From contig JANQWK010000012.1 of assembly GCA_030729925.1 (NCBI GenBank), positions 1,552-65,551 on the forward strand: a DNA stretch of 64,000 nucleotides, given 5' to 3'. Each line of letters begins with the position of its first letter. Within the stretch, counting starts at the first letter, position 1. Under the pieces are notes generated by a model, which was not told where the DNA came from, did no database searches, and saw nothing but the letters and a program-made list of their open reading frames with translations. Below, in pieces: positions 20,666-29,492 of the stretch. The position numbers and the translations under genes were made by a program. This DNA comes from Saprospiraceae bacterium (GTDB taxonomy: Bacteria; Bacteroidota; Bacteroidia; Chitinophagales; Saprospiraceae).

Positions 20666-21979
20666 TTAGTAGCGGTAGTATTCCGGTTTGAACGGACCTT
20701 CCGGCGTAACCCCGATATACTCGGCTTGGTCATTGCTCAGTTCGTCGAGTTCCACGCCAATTTTAGAAAGGTGTAGTCTGGCCACTTGCTCATCGAGGTG
20801 TTTGGGCAGGGTATAAACCTTATTTTCGTATTGGCTGTGGTTATGCCAAAGTTCCATTTGAGCCATTACCTGGTTGGTAAACGAATTGGACATCACGAAA
20901 GAGGGGTGTCCGGTAGCGCAGCCCAGGTTGACCAATCGGCCTTCAGCCAAAAGGATAATATCTTTGCCATCCACGGTATATTTGTCCACTTGTGGTTTGA
21001 TCACCACTTTGGAGTGTCCCACTTCGCGGTTGAGCCATGCCACATCAATTTCGTTATCGAAGTGACCGATATTTGCCAAGATGGCTTTATCTTTCATCAA
21101 ACGGAAATGTTTTTCCGAGATGATATCCTTATTGCCGGTTGCAGTTACGATGATATCAGCTCTTGGAATAGCATTGACCATTTTGGTCACTTCAAAGCCG
21201 TCCATAGCCGCTTGTAGTGCACAGATCGGGTCAATTTCGGTCACGATAACCCGGCAGCCTGCACCTTGTAGGGATGCAGCGGAACCTTTTCCAACGTCCC
21301 CGTAACCTGCCACGACAGCCACTTTACCTGCCATCATCACATCGGTAGCGCGTCGGATGGCATCTACGCAAGACTCTTTACAACCGTACTTGTTGTCGAA
21401 CTTAGATTTGGTCACGGAATCGTTCACGTTGATAGCGGGCATAGCCAGCGTACCTTTTTTCTGGCGCTCATACAAGCGGTGCACGCCGGTAGTTGTCTCC
21501 TCGCTCAACCCTTTCACGCCTGCGATCAATTCGGGGTGATGGTCCAACACCATATTGGTCAGGTCACCGCCATCATCGAGGATCATATTGAGGGGTTTGC
21601 CATCTTCGAAGGCAAAAAGGGTCTGTTCGATTGCCCACCAGAACTCTTCCTCGTTCATTCCTTTCCATGCATAAACGGGGATCCCTTTTGCAGCGATCGC
21701 TGCGGCTGCATGATCCTGGGTAGAGAAGATATTGCAAGAAGACCAGGACACCTCAGCACCGAGTTCGATGAGGGTTTCGATCAACACGGCGGTCTGAATG
21801 GTCATGTGAAGGCAACCCGCGATTCGGGCACCGGCTAAGGGTTTAGAAGCCCCGTATTGTTCTCTGAGTGCCATCAAGCCAGGCATTTCGGCTTCAGCCA
21901 GTTCGATTTCCTTGCGACCCCAGTCGGCCAGGGAAATATCCTTGACTTTGTATCCGGTATTCGTTTGAACGTTTTGCAT
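20666..21979 (-). CDS. ahcY: Adenosylhomocysteinase
   Basis: A 437-residue cytoplasmic NAD-dependent enzyme that splits S-adenosylhomocysteine into adenosine and homocysteine, closing the methylation cycle. It shows the NAD-binding [17 protein letters not shown], the substrate-domain segment [13 protein letters not shown] and the typical C-terminus PFKPEYYRY that completes the neighbouring subunit's site. The ATG at 21979 gives [14 protein letters not shown]; the upstream extension to 22030 is not family-like. The gene is monocistronic between two terminators. No SAH riboswitch is evident upstream; the minus-strand TAACTTTG at 22010-22017 may be its -7 box. Confidence 0.96.
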
Positions 21980-22087
21980 GAAATTATTTTTGAGTTTGAA
22001 GAATTGCCGCAAAGTTAAAGTATTGGACAAAGTTTTGCTAATATTTATCAGGCAATTGCGATTTTATGTACGATTATTAGGGACAAA

Positions 22088-22120
22088 AAAAGCCTCCCCC
22101 CGATATCGGGAGGAGGCTGC
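22088..22120 (-). terminator. Terminator of the susC-susD transcript
   Basis: On the minus strand, AGCCTCC and GGAGGCT pair around CCCGATATCGGG (22091-22118) and are followed by seven T. It lies 21 bp after the susD stop and separates that unit from ahcY. Confidence 0.85.
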
Positions 22121-22138
22121 AAGCAAAGTATCATCCAT

Positions 22139-23608
22139 TTATTTCTCCCACCAAACTTTTGTCGTGATTTCGTCCGGTCCTTGTCTGCTGATTGCAGCTT
22201 GCCGGCTCTCTGCATTCAGGGCTTCTTCCTTGGAAGGATATTCGAAGCGGCTGGGGTAGGTGCTGTAGAAAGCATCCGGCCCTGGCTGAATGGTCGTTGG
22301 GAAACCTGTTCTGCGGAATTCGATAAAACCCTGGAAGTCTGTGTAGAACAAAGCCAGGTATTTCTGCTGCATAATGCGCTCCAGGGTGTTGTTGAAGGCA
22401 CTTTCTTGTGCAGTCAGGTAGTCTCCCGGCATGGGGATACCCCAGTAAGTGATGGCAGCCTCGACACCGCGGTTGTACCATTGGGTGGCATCTGCTGCGA
22501 TCCAACCTCTGAAAGCTGCCTCAGACAGGATGAACGCCACTTCGGCGTATTGCATAAGGCGTGCTTCGTTGCGGTTGGGTGCAAAGAAGAAAAAGTCGCT
22601 GTTGAACTTGGACAAGAAGGCATCTCCGCCTTTGTATTCGTAGGCGGGGCCATCCACAATGCCGTTTTGCATACCGGAAATTTCAGGAGAGCCTGCAGCC
22701 ACGGAGTTGGCGGTAGGGTCTGCCCAAAAGGCCAGCCTTGGGTCGTTGAAGCTGCGCAAAACGCCTTCTACGGTTTCGCTGATCCGGTATTCGTTGTAAG
22801 AACCGGAGCGGTAGGTGGACTCTTCCGTGATGGGGTGAGCGTTGGGTCGTGCAGAAAGGTATTTCAACACGGCGTTGTCGCTGTTGGAAGCCATGATGGG
22901 GTATTGGGCAGCATTGCCGAACACCTTGGTGATTTCTGCCTGTGCGGTCGTGGGTTTCACCTTGCTCAGGCGCATGGCAACGCGCAGGTGTAGGCTGTTG
23001 GCAAACCTTCTCCACTTGTCCAGGTTTCCGTTGAAGATAATATCACCTTTGATGTTGGGCAAATAAGCAGCGCTTAGCAACGTATTGGCCTTCTCGAGGT
23101 TTTCCAGCAACTGGTTGTAAATCGCTTCCTGGGTATCGTAAGCGGGGGTAAAAACAGGTTCTTCTGCGGTAGCTGCTGCTGCCTCAGAGAAAGGCACATC
23201 GCCCCACATATCGGTCAGGATCTGCCCGATCCAGGCTTGCATGATCAGCGAAACAGCCTCGTAGCTCACGTGGGCTTTTTGAGAAGCGATAGCCTGAAGT
23301 TCTCTGGCGTCGCGGATAGACAGGTACAGCCCGTTCCAGGTACCGGATTGGTCGCCCCAGTTAAAGAGGTCGAATTCTGTAAATACAATTCTGGCACCGT
23401 ACTGCGCCATGAGGTTGCCCTCGCTCCAGGCGGAACCTACCATGTTGTTGACCGCGCTGCGCTGGATGTTGGTCAGCAGCAGTTCGGGGTTGTTTTCGAT
23501 GCTTAAGGCCACATCGGGGTTTTCGTTGCTCACCTCAAAAGAGTCGCAGGCACTGACTGCCAGCAGAAGACCGATGAGGAGGACACTATGTTTGAACATT
23601 TTTTTCAT
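22139..23608 (-). CDS. SusD/RagB-like nutrient-binding outer-membrane lipoprotein
   Basis: A 489-residue surface lipoprotein (signal with lipobox VSAC). It has the SusD-like helical-repeat fold of the PF12771-like branch: NENPDVALSIENNPELLLTNIQ near the start, LSEAAFRGW in the middle and the closing YPSKEEALN region. SusD proteins sit on top of the SusC barrel and bind the nutrient as a lid. The gene follows susC by 18 bp. This SusD branch is often found away from glycan-degrading enzymes, and no glycoside hydrolase is present here, so the ligand need not be a sugar. Confidence 0.92.
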   Translation of the reverse strand: MKKMFKHSVLLIGLLLAVSACDSFEVSNENPDVALSIENNPELLLTNIQRSAVNNMVGSAWSEGNLMAQYGARIVFTEFDLFNWGDQSGTWNGLYLSIRDARELQAIASQKAHVSYEAVSLIMQAWIGQILTDMWGDVPFSEAAAATAEEPVFTPAYDTQEAIYNQLLENLEKANTLLSAAYLPNIKGDIIFNGNLDKWRRFANSLHLRVAMRLSKVKPTTAQAEITKVFGNAAQYPIMASNSDNAVLKYLSARPNAHPITEESTYRSGSYNEYRISETVEGVLRSFNDPRLAFWADPTANSVAAGSPEISGMQNGIVDGPAYEYKGGDAFLSKFNSDFFFFAPNRNEARLMQYAEVAFILSEAAFRGWIAADATQWYNRGVEAAITYWGIPMPGDYLTAQESAFNNTLERIMQQKYLALFYTDFQGFIEFRRTGFPTTIQPGPDAFYSTYPSRFEYPSKEEALNAESRQAAISRQGPDEITTKVWWEK

Positions 23609-23626
23609 GGTTCTTGTGTTTTTGGA

Positions 23627-26600
23627 TTAGAAATCAACTTTTACCGAGAAACCTACGCTGCGTGAAGAGGGTACTGTAGCGTCTTCCACGCCGGGTACAA
23701 ATTGTCCGCCTCCGAATGATAGGAGTTCCGGGTCGCCGTGGTTGAAGTCTTTCGCCCACAACATCAAGTTGTTGCCAATCAGAGAAAGGGTAAGTTTGTT
23801 GATGGTTTTGCTGTTGAGTACCGATGCAGGGATCTGGTAGCTCAGGCGTGCCTCACGAAGTTTGATGAAAGTAGCATCGTACAAACCTTCGGTTTCGTTT
23901 TGGCGGCGGTAGCGGTTGTTGTGGTAAGCGTTGGCTGGTACCTTCACATCGTTAGGGACATAGCTGATGCTTCCATTGTCGTTGACGACTTCTTTTACCC
24001 CTGCACCAATGATACCGTCAGTTTTGGTTTGTCCGGATGCGTCGGTGTAGCTTAGACCTGAGTCGTAAATACCCGGGTGTGCGCCCCCGAATTCTGGTTC
24101 TCTGCCCCAAAGGGTTTCTACTACGTTACCGGCAGTGGCCGCGATCAGGCGCGTAGCGGAGATCAGGTCGCCACCTTGACGGTAGTCAAACAAAAAGCTG
24201 AGGGAGAAATTTTTATAAGCAAATTCGTTGGTTACACCCAACATGAAATCGGGGTTGAAGTTACCGATTTTACGCAGGGTGTTGTCTTCCTGAACCAGAC
24301 CGTTTTTGAAGATGACTTCTCCGTAGTAAGGGCTGGAAGGATCCTGTACGGTTTTCAAACCCGTCCCCCACATATCACCCAATGAACCACCTTTTTGGGC
24401 TATCAGGGTCATCCGGTTACCGCCATATACATAACGGTCAACGCCTTGTGGCAGCTCCAGGATTTCGTTGCGGTTGAGGGAGAAGTTGAACAGGGCGTTC
24501 CACTTGAATTTTTTGTCGGAAGACAGGGGTGCCACGCCAAGCAGGGCTTCGATACCGTAGTTTTGAATCTTACCTGCGTTGATCAAACGGGAGGTTTTAC
24601 CCGTTGTTGCCGGCAATTCGATAGCGAGGATCTGGTTTTCTGAGATGGTACTATAATAAGTCACATCCAGGTTCAGTCTGTTTTTAAACAGGCGCACATC
24701 TGCACCGATCTCGAAAGAGGTCTGCAACTCAGGCTTCAGATCGAGGTTGGGCAGTGCGTTGGAAGGCGCTGCAGTGGCATTGCTTCCAAATGGGGTTCCA
24801 CCAAACAGGAAGGGGTTGGCCAACTGGAACGGGGAAGCATCGCTACCTACCTGTGCTACCCCTACGCGCAATTTGGCGAAGGAAAGGGTGCTGTTGACGG
24901 GTACGTCAAACAGATCCGTCAATACTGCACTCAGCGAAGCAGAAGGATAGAAGTAGGAATTGTTGTCCACAGGCAGGGTGCTGGACCAGTCGTTTCGGGC
25001 GGTCAAGTCCAGGTAAATGGCATTTTTCCAGCCGATTTGGGCGAAACCATATACCGAGTTGATTTGTCTTTCCGGCCGGTCAATAGATTGTACCAGCGGC
25101 ACACTTGCGTTGGTGAAGGAGTAAACACCCGGAATCAACAGACCATTGGCCGACAAACCATTGAAGTGGTTTTTCTGAACCATGCGGTTACCACCCAGGT
25201 TAGCACTTACCGTCAAATCACTGCCAAAGTTTTTGTTGAAGTTAAGCAGGAAGTCGAGGTTGGTTTCGTTGAAGTTGATTTTGTCTTCTCTGTATTGTCC
25301 TCTTGGGAAACGCTGGGTAGAATAGGCGCGTTTCATAAAGCGGTATTCAGAGAAGAAGTCAGTACCTCCGCGAACCATCAGGTTGAGGTAGGGGGTAAAC
25401 TTGTAGTTGGCTGAAATATTTCCAATGATCCTGTCTTTTTGCAGGGCATTGGTGTTTTCGTACATCGTGAAGTAAGGGTTGTCGTGGTAGTTGTAGTTGT
25501 AGTTGAACTGCTGGAAGCCTTCCAGGCCGCGCTGCCAGTAATCTCTGAGCGAGCTGGTGCTGACGTTTTGACCCCACCAGATAAACAGGTACATGACCGA
25601 TTCTGTACCATATCCATTGACATGGCGGTTGTCACTGTCAGTGCGGATGTAGTTGGACTTTGCCGAGATGGTCAACTTGTCGGTGAGGTTGTAATCTCCC
25701 GAAATGGCCACAGTATTTCTGCGCAAGTCGGTATTAGGAAGAATGCCGGTGTTGTCAAAGTTGGTGTACGACACCCGGAAGTTTCCATTGTCATTATTTC
25801 CGAAGAAGGATACGTTGTTGATCAGGGTGCGACCTGTTTCCATGAAGTTGGCCACCGGATCTCCCGGATCTACAAAAGGCGTCGGTGTGATGGCACCGCG
25901 ACGAGCCAGGTTGACCCCGCTTGGACCCAGTACAAAGTCCAAACCATGAACGTCAGCACCTCTTAGTCCGTTGGCGGTAGGAGAGTCGTGCTGTGCAATG
26001 AGTCGGCCATCCAGTCTCGGTCCCCAGCTTTCGTCCACCCCGTCGAAGGTTCCGTTACCGTAACCGTCCACAAAGCCAAACTGAAAGTTTTTACCCTGAC
26101 CATATTCTCGCTGAAATTCAGGTCCTGTTAGGATAGACTCGAAGGTGGTTTTGGAGTGGACACTTACACCGATCCCTTTTTTGCCTTTACCACTTTTGGT
26201 CGTGATGATCACCGCTCCGTTGGCTGCACGAGATCCGTACAAAGCCGTAGCGTTGGCACCCTTCAACACAGAGATGCTCTCGATATCGTCGGGGTTGATG
26301 TCGGCTGCACCATTGCCAAAGTCCATGTTCATGTTGCTGGCAATACCGCGTGTGTTGGTACGGGTATCAGTGGTGTTGTTGATAGGAGTACCATCTACGA
26401 CAAACAGCGGCTGGTTGTCGCCGCTCATAGAAGTGTAGCCTCGAATCACCACACTGGCAGAAGCACCTGCTCCTGCACCGCTGCTTACCACTTGTACACC
26501 GGCAGTACGACCGGCAAGTGAACTAACCAGGTTGGCACCGTTGGCAGCAGCGATTTCCTCGCCACCCAATTCCTGCACGGCATAGCCCAATGCCTTTTTT

Positions 26601-26953
26601 TCACGGGTAATACCGAGTGCGGTAACAGTCACCTCATCCAATCCCAAAGCAGACTCCGTCAAAGTGATAGAGAGGGTTTCTGTGCCGGTAACGGCTATTT
26701 CAATCGTGGTGTAACCCACATAAGATACCGACAATACCGTCGGCAAAGTTGCCACGCTGATCTCGAAGTTTCCCTCGAAATCGGTTACCGCTCCTGTAGC
26801 AGTACTTTTCTCGATAATGGTGGCTCCAATCAAAGGCTCGGCCGAGGTATTGGCTACCTTGCCTCGGATAAGTTGCTGCCCGTTTACCTGTGTGTAAAGG
26901 GCAACAACCATCAAGGTAAAGAATAAACGACTGGTGTACAGATGTTTAAACAT
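23627..26953 (-). CDS. SusC/RagA family TonB-dependent outer-membrane transporter
   Basis: A 1108-residue TonB-dependent barrel. After a signal peptide (to about residue 25, NGQ) comes a carboxypeptidase-D-regulatory-like domain (GKVANTSAEPLIGATI ... VSYVGY). Next are the plug with the SusC signature region (GADVRGY-like SASVVIRGYTSM, SISVLKGANATALYGSRAANGAVIITTKSGK) and then the 22-strand barrel, ending in SVGFSVKVDF. It imports the substrate bound by the adjacent SusD protein, driven by TonB-ExbBD. The 120-bp gap before it (26954-27073) contains no clear promoter or terminator, so it may be transcribed from the phosphoesterase genes upstream. Confidence 0.94.
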   Translation of the reverse strand: MFKHLYTSRLFFTLMVVALYTQVNGQQLIRGKVANTSAEPLIGATIIEKSTATGAVTDFEGNFEISVATLPTVLSVSYVGYTTIEIAVTGTETLSITLTESALGLDEVTVTALGITREKKALGYAVQELGGEEIAAANGANLVSSLAGRTAGVQVVSSGAGAGASASVVIRGYTSMSGDNQPLFVVDGTPINNTTDTRTNTRGIASNMNMDFGNGAADINPDDIESISVLKGANATALYGSRAANGAVIITTKSGKGKKGIGVSVHSKTTFESILTGPEFQREYGQGKNFQFGFVDGYGNGTFDGVDESWGPRLDGRLIAQHDSPTANGLRGADVHGLDFVLGPSGVNLARRGAITPTPFVDPGDPVANFMETGRTLINNVSFFGNNDNGNFRVSYTNFDNTGILPNTDLRRNTVAISGDYNLTDKLTISAKSNYIRTDSDNRHVNGYGTESVMYLFIWWGQNVSTSSLRDYWQRGLEGFQQFNYNYNYHDNPYFTMYENTNALQKDRIIGNISANYKFTPYLNLMVRGGTDFFSEYRFMKRAYSTQRFPRGQYREDKINFNETNLDFLLNFNKNFGSDLTVSANLGGNRMVQKNHFNGLSANGLLIPGVYSFTNASVPLVQSIDRPERQINSVYGFAQIGWKNAIYLDLTARNDWSSTLPVDNNSYFYPSASLSAVLTDLFDVPVNSTLSFAKLRVGVAQVGSDASPFQLANPFLFGGTPFGSNATAAPSNALPNLDLKPELQTSFEIGADVRLFKNRLNLDVTYYSTISENQILAIELPATTGKTSRLINAGKIQNYGIEALLGVAPLSSDKKFKWNALFNFSLNRNEILELPQGVDRYVYGGNRMTLIAQKGGSLGDMWGTGLKTVQDPSSPYYGEVIFKNGLVQEDNTLRKIGNFNPDFMLGVTNEFAYKNFSLSFLFDYRQGGDLISATRLIAATAGNVVETLWGREPEFGGAHPGIYDSGLSYTDASGQTKTDGIIGAGVKEVVNDNGSISYVPNDVKVPANAYHNNRYRRQNETEGLYDATFIKLREARLSYQIPASVLNSKTINKLTLSLIGNNLMLWAKDFNHGDPELLSFGGGQFVPGVEDATVPSSRSVGFSVKVDF

Positions 26954-27073
26954 GAATGGTTGTTTTTGTTAAAGAATACACAAAACAACTCATCATGCTT
27001 TAATCCAACCGTCGCCTAATCTTAAGAATAAGTTAGTTATTTGGTGTCGAATTTCAGTTTTGTAACTTTTTCA

Positions 27074-28174
27074 TTAATTCTTGTTTAACAAATCCCCGAT
27101 TGCCTGTCCGGCTTTGCCCTTGCCGTCATAAGGAATGCCGAGGAGGGTAGTCGCGGTGCGGGCGATTTGGTTGGTATAGTAAACGGGTGAATTTTGCCGT
27201 TCGCCGCTGGCTGGGGTATCGGGTCCTATAGCGGCGATCCAGGTTTGGTAGGCATCTTTGACGCTGGTACCGTGGTCGGTCCACTGGCGTTTGATGGCGT
27301 CTCCGCGGCCGTGGTCGGTGGTGATGATAAAGGTAGTATTGTTGGCGTAGTGGGGATCTTTTTGGCAATACTCCCAGAGTTGGCGGATAAAAGTATCTGT
27401 TCTTCGAGCAGCATGGAGGTATTGGTCGTAGTCGGCATCGTGGGCAAAGTCATCGGTTTCGCCGTAGGCGATGTAGAGGAGTCGGGGCTGGTGTTTTTTG
27501 ACCCACTCGAGCGCGTAATGGTGGGTAAAGACGTCCAGTCTGACGCTTGACCAGGGAGAGGGGGTTTGTTCTTGGAGTTCATTGAGGAAGCTTTCCCGTT
27601 CGCTGAGGGTTTCTTCGGTGGCAGGCTGAAAACCGGCATTGACGTGCACCCCACTGCGCTGGTCGTTGATGATATAAGGAAAGACATCCCAGGAGCCGAA
27701 GGCGGCCACTTTCCCTTCGAAACCGGGGCTTTGGTTGGCTATTTCGAGTATGGTGGAGTTGGGATTGTATTTTTTGGCATTGGAAGTGATGTTCGGGTCG
27801 GCATAGCCGGTGAGGATTTCATTGTAGCCCGGGTAGGAAAACCACTGGTCGTTCGTAAGGTTGACTTGGCTGTTGAGGTTTCGGTTGCCGATAAGTTGTC
27901 CTTCTTTGGCGAGGGTTGACCAAAAGAAAGGCATGAGGAGCTGTCGGCGCTGTTCCGGGCTTTCTGCCCAAAAGGCGTCTTTGAGCGATTGGGTATCGCT
28001 GACGTACCGGGTATCAGCGATGAGTTCTGGATCTGCTCCGGCAAAAAGTTCCTGCCAGCGCAATCCGTCGAGGGTGATGATCCATACGTTTTGGGTTTGG
28101 TAGTCCTGCGCTCGGATAGTGGAAACAAACAAGCAGGACAGGAGGAAAAGAGCGAAATGGGGTTTGAATGGCAT
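27074..28174 (-). CDS. Alkaline-phosphatase-fold phosphoesterase, secreted
   Basis: A 366-residue enzyme with a signal peptide (to about residue 22, IRAQ). Alkaline-phosphatase superfamily metal ligands are seen as WIITLDGLRWQELF near the start, GETDDFAHDAD in the middle and ITTDHGRGD then TDHG later, as in phosphodiesterase/nucleotide pyrophosphatase relatives. It should hydrolyse phosphate mono- or diesters in the periplasm or outside. The gene lies between a metallophosphoesterase gene (14 bp upstream) and susC (120 bp downstream), all on the minus strand, so it may release or prepare the SusCD ligand. The precise substrate is unknown. Confidence 0.85.
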   Translation of the reverse strand: MPFKPHFALFLLSCLFVSTIRAQDYQTQNVWIITLDGLRWQELFAGADPELIADTRYVSDTQSLKDAFWAESPEQRRQLLMPFFWSTLAKEGQLIGNRNLNSQVNLTNDQWFSYPGYNEILTGYADPNITSNAKKYNPNSTILEIANQSPGFEGKVAAFGSWDVFPYIINDQRSGVHVNAGFQPATEETLSERESFLNELQEQTPSPWSSVRLDVFTHHYALEWVKKHQPRLLYIAYGETDDFAHDADYDQYLHAARRTDTFIRQLWEYCQKDPHYANNTTFIITTDHGRGDAIKRQWTDHGTSVKDAYQTWIAAIGPDTPASGERQNSPVYYTNQIARTATTLLGIPYDGKGKAGQAIGDLLNKN

Positions 28175-28188
28175 AGGGATAAGGTTTT

Positions 28189-29448
28189 TTATTTTGTAAA
28201 GGTCACTTGATCTATGATGTGGCCGTTGAGGTCGTACACCAGGAGTTCGGCCTTGTTGTCATGGAGCACCATCCGACAAAAGTGATGGACTTTGAGGATG
28301 TTGTCCATCTGGGGTTGAGGATTGTTTGGGGGCGCTTCCAATCCGCCACCTGCGCCACCTGAGAGGATAAAATGGGTAGCTTGTTGACCGTAGTTTTTGC
28401 TGAGGCGCTCGTAGTCGTGGTTGTGTCCGCCAAGCACGAAATCAATCCGGTATTTTTCCGCAAGGGAAGCTATCCAATCGCGCAGGAATAAGTCGCCCTC
28501 ATGACCCTCCCAGCCTTGCCCGTAAGGAAATTGATGCAGTGCAACGAATCGCCAGTCTGCTCGTTGCCAGGCTTCTGACGACAAAACTTCCATAGCCCAT
28601 TGTTGCTGCAACGAGTCAATAGACAGGGGGAAATTGCCATTGGGGTCGAGCATCAGGAAGATGGCATTGCCCCGGCTGAAGGAATACCAGGTGGTTTGGC
28701 CGGGTTGCAACTGGACGAGTTGCCGATAATGATTGCTGACCAAGTCCTGGTAGTAGCCATCATAGTCGTGGTTGCCCGGAATGAGGAACACTTCCCGGTC
28801 GGCAGAAAGCGCATACAGGATTTTCTCGAAGTCTATCCATTGTTCTCTGTCTATCCCATTGCCCACCAGGTCGCCCAGTCCGATGGAAAAATGGTCGGGA
28901 TACCGCTGCATTTGGGCTGCCAATTGCCGAAACACAGGCCATCCGCCCTGGGAGTCGCCCCAAAAGCTGAAATGCACAGGGGGCTTACGCGCTTTAGGGG
29001 TGAGTAGGGTGATGGATCTTAGGCCGCCTTCTAGGGCGTTGTTGAGTACCCGGATTTGCAGGTTGTTTACCCTATTTCTTTGCCCGGGCAATATGAAATG
29101 CCCAAACTGGTCGCGCAGCAACATTTGTGCGTTGAGCCAGGCCTGTGCTCCGTCATCGGCGCTGATGGCCATTCGGGTAGCCGAGTCCGGCAAAACGACA
29201 TTGGTCTGGTACCAGAGTGCCTGATCAGGCATGTTCACGCGGTGGGGAAGGGCAACCGCTATACTTTCTTGGAAATCCGGGATGAAGCCGGGTATCAGCC
29301 CCTGAGCAGTTTTTTCCGGCAGGAAATACCAAGTACCTTCCAAAGGCGTAGGAGTATAACTATTCCTATCGGAAAAAGGATACCTTCCGGTTTGGCCGAC
29401 AAGTACCGTGGTGACCAGCAATAAAAGCCCTGCAGCATACCCTTTCAT
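28189..29448 (-). CDS. Calcineurin-like metallophosphoesterase, secreted
   Basis: A 419-residue enzyme with signal peptide MKGYAAGLLLLVTTVLVGQ at the ATG 29448; the open frame further upstream is not protein-like. The five dinuclear-metal motifs are present in order: GDSQGG, GLGDLVGNG, PGNHDYDG, LHQFPYG and GGHNHDYER. A beta-sandwich-like domain precedes the catalytic part, as in purple acid phosphatases. It hydrolyses phosphoesters outside the cytoplasm. It is first in the leftward cluster with the alkaline-phosphatase-fold gene, susC and susD, and a good promoter lies just upstream. Confidence 0.9.
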   Translation of the reverse strand: MKGYAAGLLLLVTTVLVGQTGRYPFSDRNSYTPTPLEGTWYFLPEKTAQGLIPGFIPDFQESIAVALPHRVNMPDQALWYQTNVVLPDSATRMAISADDGAQAWLNAQMLLRDQFGHFILPGQRNRVNNLQIRVLNNALEGGLRSITLLTPKARKPPVHFSFWGDSQGGWPVFRQLAAQMQRYPDHFSIGLGDLVGNGIDREQWIDFEKILYALSADREVFLIPGNHDYDGYYQDLVSNHYRQLVQLQPGQTTWYSFSRGNAIFLMLDPNGNFPLSIDSLQQQWAMEVLSSEAWQRADWRFVALHQFPYGQGWEGHEGDLFLRDWIASLAEKYRIDFVLGGHNHDYERLSKNYGQQATHFILSGGAGGGLEAPPNNPQPQMDNILKVHHFCRMVLHDNKAELLVYDLNGHIIDQVTFTK

Positions 29449-29463
29449 AGAGAAAATTTCCGA

Positions 29464-29492
29464 CAAATGTATTTTCCTTATGTTAACGGCAA
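29464..29492 (-). promoter_or_regulatory. Bacteroidota-type promoter for the phosphoesterase-SusCD cluster
   Basis: On the minus strand a TTG (29490-29492) is followed after 18 bases by TACATTTG (29464-29471). This matches the phylum's -33 TTTG / -7 TAnnTTTG pattern. The start codon at 29448 is about 15 bases beyond, leaving a very short leader. Confidence 0.45.

Follow-up and report, generated by a model that had tools for sequence, protein, structure and literature searches.

Four genes on the reverse strand of the window, the 64-kb stretch of DNA analysed here, which is part of contig C12 of a 3.74 Mb Saprospiraceae genome (99.8% complete), encode two secreted phosphoesterases and a SusC/SusD pair. 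Judged from sequence comparison, it is probable that this cluster, a variant of PusCD, provides the outer-membrane and periplasmic part of a system for scavenging aminophosphonate esters. The flow would run inwards. SusD and SusC would capture and import an esterified aminophosphonate, e.g. a piece of a phosphonolipid or a phosphonoglycan, and the enzyme of the alkaline phosphatase (AP) superfamily, aided by the metallophosphoesterase (MPE), would cut its P-O ester in the periplasm. What this cut sets free would be a small aminophosphonate such as 2-aminoethylphosphonate (AEP) or N-methyl-AEP. DUF5690 may move this product over the inner membrane, an FAD oxidase of family TIGR03364 would turn it into phosphonoacetaldehyde, and a PhnX-like hydrolase would split the C-P bond to yield phosphate. 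The genes for these cytoplasmic steps would, in the window's genome, be those that sit on other contigs.

Read from 29448 down to 22139, the genes encode the MPE, the AP-fold enzyme, SusC and SusD and are separated by 14, 120 and 18 bp, as the first-pass annotation had placed them. The MPE (28189-29448) scores 46.8 bits against PF00149 (cut-off 21.5), and the AP-fold enzyme (27074-28174), a putative secreted ester hydrolase, scores 32.2 against PF01663 (cut-off 23). The third gene (23627-26953) encodes a SusC/RagA-type TonB-dependent outer-membrane transporter (TIGR04056, 640 against a cut-off of 368; TIGR04057 is also above its cut-off), and the last (22139-23608) a SusD-like surface lipoprotein of the SusD-like_2 family (PF12771, 319 against 27). 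The profiles assign SusC and SusD to their families clearly, and both esterases with moderate support.

Ahead of the first gene lies a promoter-like -33/-7 pair of the Bacteroidota type (TTG-N18-TACATTTG; 29464-29492, reverse strand), which is present as a motif; seven pairs of this type occur on the same strand across the 64 kb. A sigma-70 scan, which used the E. coli-type and not a Bacteroidota consensus, gave an uninformative three matches against 5.8 expected. The cluster ends in a strong intrinsic terminator on the reverse strand at 22091-22118, within the limits of 22088-22120 given earlier, with a 12-bp stem (nine G-C pairs), a loop of four and a T tract. The stretch holds 13 matches to the terminator pattern, of which this one has the most stem pairs; shuffled sequence gives a mean of 11.2 such matches of any strength. 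A second promoter had been proposed in the 120-bp gap between the AP gene and susC. We rejected this candidate: a motif scan found no TANNTTTG in the gap, which leaves the proposal without motif support.

The four genes are probably one operon. Their grouping is not a matter of chance, because the same four families occur in the same order, MPE-AP-SusC-SusD, in genome G003 (locus L098), where a partial TIGR03364 match below the cut-off lies 17 kb off, and because G363 (L227) carries SusC-SusD-AP-MPE beside the FAD oxidase and DUF5690. The cluster is flanked downstream by a SAH hydrolase and upstream by a LOG-family protein. A scan with Pfam and NCBIfam found no glycan-degrading enzyme in the cluster or among the flanking proteins, in agreement with the earlier annotation, and the cluster does not qualify as a polysaccharide utilisation locus. 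The SAH hydrolase gene adjoins susD in the window (20666-28174) and the AP gene in Portibacter lacus (L036:8175-11083), where no SusCD is found at the AP gene.

The connection with phosphonates comes from relatives. There, an operon recurs with the order SusC-SusD-AP-HD-X-DUF5690-FAD, in which HD is a PhnZ-like oxygenase, X a PhnX-like hydrolase and FAD the TIGR03364 oxidase. The closest family of HD is the phosphonate-degradation HD oxygenase TIGR03276 (185 bits, below the cut-off of 214.6) and that of X the phosphonatase-like TIGR03351 (175 bits, below 218.9), while FAD exceeds the cut-off of TIGR03364 (391 bits against 285). The run in G017 (L099) reads SusC-SusD-AP-HD-MPE629-PHP-FAD-X-DUF5690, and in G263 (L155) X-DUF5690-FAD-MPE-AP form a single run in one direction. 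In G122 (L178), SusC-SusD-AP-HD is followed by PhnA, phosphonoacetaldehyde dehydrogenase and PhnW, each above its curated cut-off, and after these by another FAD enzyme and DUF5690; the presence of PhnA, the dehydrogenase and PhnW marks this run as an AEP catabolic operon. At least 90% of 32 X proteins carry a G-x-x-K motif, which lies at about the place where the Schiff-base lysine of PhnX would be expected. A family of about 205 residues with HTH_3 and Cupin_2 domains, seen in 11 loci, sits beside phosphonate genes in several relatives (L161:7449-8159, L227:3481-4056, L237:556-1131), in L161 between a divergent susC and DUF5690-AP. These positions hint that it is likely a local regulator in some relatives; none was seen beside the operon in the window.

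The gene neighbourhoods were counted at 73 mapped AP loci, which had partly been selected for nearby FAD genes (those of L227 and L237 being called by BLAST only). Within 9 kb, FAD was found at 35 loci, SusC at 35, DUF5690 at 34, SusD at 32, X at 30 and HD at 21. For 71 distinct loci (L036 and L037, kept among the 73, were left out as duplicates of the loci in G079 and G314, a shared 2-kb stretch being identical), SusD lies within 9 kb at 31, at least two phosphonate genes at 34 and both at 25 (p 1e-6); SusD occurs without two such genes at six loci, that of G003 included, and the phosphonate genes occur without SusD at nine. Across 298 genomes of the order, with the window's own included, AP occurs in 83, TIGR03364 in 74 and both in 43, against about 21 expected (Fisher p 1.3e-10). 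TIGR03364 was not found in 40 of the 83 AP genomes, nor AP in 31 of the 74 TIGR03364 genomes; since six candidates per genome were scored, TIGR03364 may be undercounted. Across the phylum, AP occurs in 53 of 395 genomes. Many of the AP loci mapped outside the order are without phosphonate neighbours, and the AP family is therefore broader than phosphonates.

These counts bear on a rival explanation, that the cluster is a general phosphate-starvation PusCD locus, in which phosphodiesters such as lipid head groups or nucleic-acid pieces would be imported and in the periplasm the two phosphoesterases would strip off phosphate. On this view, relatives would show the link to phosphonates only incidentally, since both are forms of phosphorus scavenging. 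We regard this as rather unlikely, even with the 40 AP genomes in which no TIGR03364 was found and with a precedent in Flavobacterium, whose PusCD occurs with phosphomono- and diesterases according to passages of PMC8115612. What speaks against an incidental link is the physical linkage of AP and the FAD oxidase, which lie at most 10 kb apart in 27 of the 43 genomes that hold both. At some loci, AP has phosphoesterase genes as neighbours, namely PF04185 phosphoesterases with beta-propeller matches, PhoX, GDPD, a metallophosphoesterase and the PhoA type (L174:10193-12643, L193:9676-12459, L237:10704-12839, L235:7895-9619, L236:11811-13586). These neighbours hint at lipid-derived substrates, and the GDPD, PhoX, PhoA-type and PF04185 genes would also suit a general phosphate-starvation locus.

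For the aminophosphonate reading that we prefer, the parts are present in the window's genome but split. An FAD oxidase (TIGR03364, 385.6 against 285.1) and a PhnX-like hydrolase (236.1 against 218.9) are adjacent on contig C33 (L114:9790-11650), and no SusCD was seen in the 20 kb that hold them; the pair of an aminophosphonate catabolic locus thus occurs in the genome, on C33 and not in the same cluster as the operon on C12. DUF5690 is on C57, a relative of HD on C16 (202 bits, below the cut-off of 214.6) and a relative of MPE629 on C88. The clearest weak points of our reading are two. No phosphonate gene lies in or beside the cluster itself, so that the link to phosphonates is one of homology. 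Moreover, a congener (G001) whose SusD matches that of the window at 84% shows neither AP nor TIGR03364, although this genome is 88% complete and its contig breaks off just upstream of susC, 136 bases beyond the start of that gene.

The AP-fold enzyme was modelled with a mean pLDDT of 95.3. Its sequence profile gave weak matches in the PDB (best E 0.0033), and the superfamily was settled by the fold search, in which the best 50 solved folds listed had Z scores of 24 to 30. Among the matches listed, PafA (5tj3) is the closest solved fold by VIA-align (Z 29.6, rmsd 3.2, 296 residues aligned), and the others include SPAP, NPP diesterases at about Z 26 and the phosphonate monoester hydrolase 2w8s at Z 24.9. 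An alignment of 38 AP sequences has a mean column identity of 54%, and D36, S113, N132, D241, H245, D287, H288 and H301 are invariant in all 38. These residues are presumably the metal ligands, the nucleophile (S113) and the phosphate-binding Asn of the superfamily, and make up a probable catalytic set. Both the predicted fold and the full set of metal-binding and nucleophile residues place the enzyme in the alkaline phosphatase superfamily.

That PafA, a phosphatase, is the nearest fold among those listed would favour a general phosphate-starvation locus. The two enzymes differ in that they share 17% identity over the 296 residues, that the window enzyme has 366 residues and PafA 520, and that the probable nucleophile position holds Ser in the window enzyme and Thr79 in PafA (as named in the title of entry 5too). 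The modelled fold does not distinguish cleavage of monoesters from that of diesters, nor does it give the substrate. We also considered whether the enzyme is the phosphonoacetate hydrolase PhnA and rejected this: it has no NCBIfam match at 1e-3, TIGR02335 (PhnA) included, and L178 encodes a true PhnA in addition to its relative of the AP enzyme, which shows that AP and PhnA are different genes.

The SusC tree places the window SusC in a clade of 16 members with a support of 0.925; it was used because support near the window in the SusD tree is modest (0.72). Outside the window's genus the clade has 14 members, all of them in genomes that match TIGR03364, and at 10 of the 14 the FAD oxidase is in the locus. 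As eight of these ten entered through the AP search, the figure free of this bias is the one obtained by SusD: TIGR03364 was found in six of seven genomes with a SusD match of at least 290 bits and in 3 of 52 others (p 1.2e-5), where the threshold was chosen after a gap in the scores had been seen (p 0.006 at 210 bits and 0.018 at 190 bits) and G003 among the six and G056 among the three are counted on partial TIGR03364 matches below the cut-off. In the sister SusC clade, AP, HD, FAD, X and DUF5690 are near susD at none of nine loci, one of which is the window genome's own paralogue; this control covers five genes on each side of susD and fewer at contig ends (almost nothing downstream in L268). 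Directly downstream of susD in L265-L267 and L270 of the sister clade, two proteins recur, one of about 450 residues and one, of the Metallophos_2 family, of about 280; the domain assignments come from L266, where the longer protein has no Pfam match. This pair is a different conserved cargo of the sister SusCD clade.

The SusD bears, by eye, the lipobox LAVSAC. Its model (pLDDT 84.2) has 5j5u as the best fold match listed (Z 42.9), and the closest folds among those listed are a chitin-binding SusD and other glycan-binding SusDs. This likeness raises the alternative that the pair imports a glycan or glycolipid that bears phosphate or phosphonate decorations, which the esterases would only take off. 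A check of two neighbours that resembled glycosidases identified a GH2 gene some 1 kb ahead of the operon in L174 (L174:513-2939) and, in L233, a GH1 gene that lies three genes beyond AP (L233:5871-7286); both point the same way and speak against a purely phosphonate reading of those two loci. Nevertheless, we find such an importer improbable, as the window cluster and its flanks encode no glycoside hydrolase, none turned up among those neighbours of the remaining loci that were scanned (a part of all neighbours), and the modelled SusD fold alone does not show the ligand.

The MPE also follows the oxidase. By eye, it has an N-terminal signal peptide and the purple-acid-phosphatase-like motifs GNHD and GHNHDYER. 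Relatives that match its catalytic domain at 44-52% are in G263, G003, G265, G203 and G139, and all five relatives at 44% or above come from genomes that match TIGR03364 (p 8e-4); the next ones, in G287 (39%) and G008 (32%), are from genomes without such a match. Like AP, both the relatives of the MPE and the SusC clade track the FAD oxidase, which argues further against a general phosphate-starvation locus. The first-pass annotation had suggested that the transporter imports a phosphorus-bearing nutrient rather than a glycan, and organic phosphorus is upheld here. Its examples of a nucleotide, a phospholipid head or a phosphosugar are not favoured, since AP, the SusCD clade and the MPE are tied in relatives to genes of aminophosphonate catabolism.

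PusCD of Flavobacterium is a precedent for SusCD pairs that serve phosphorus, and passages of PMC8115612 report its induction by low phosphate and six forms of PusD. The window cluster resembles PusCD in that a SusCD pair lies beside phosphoesterases and not glycan enzymes. Compared by Pfam type, the two PusDs described in those passages are of the PF07980/PF14322 types, whereas the window SusD is PF12771, with PF14322 at 25 bits, below its cut-off of 27. One sentence of PMC8115612 states that PusCD clusters co-localise with phosphonate-degrading enzymes too; the window-type operon differs in that it is tied, in relatives, to one particular aminophosphonate gene set. For the FAD oxidase, passages of PMC10590968 report that the N-methyl-AEP oxidase PbfD1 carries the annotation TIGR03364, that PbfC and PbfD convert N-methyl-AEP to phosphonoacetaldehyde with some such FAD enzymes also using plain AEP, and that these enzymes come predominantly from Proteobacteria and some PVC. 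The pairing of an FAD oxidase with a PhnX-type hydrolase is common to those clusters and ours, but here it is found in Bacteroidota together with SusCD, the AP-fold enzyme and DUF5690, and the oxidase does not adjoin the window operon. Among the matches listed in our literature search, no title or abstract concerns the window-type operon, the nearest text being the sentence in PMC8115612, and no paper concerns DUF5690.

SusCD-type importers are best known for sugars, and to our knowledge phosphonate transporters carry small free phosphonates. Phosphonates also occur built into lipids and glycans, as a passage of PMC8316502 states. It is conceivable, though we propose this more tentatively than our reading of the window cluster itself, that a dedicated SusCD imports natural aminophosphonate esters in Chitinophagales and other Bacteroidota, and that the AP-fold enzyme acts specifically on phosphonate esters, as a new hydrolase of the periplasm that feeds the pathway of oxidase and PhnX-like hydrolase via DUF5690. 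If this is true, Bacteroidota would gain a route to bound phosphonate by SusCD import, ester cleavage and C-P cleavage. It would also point to what a large clade of SusCD pairs imports, and DUF5690 and an uncharacterised enzyme of the AP superfamily would acquire roles that can be tested.
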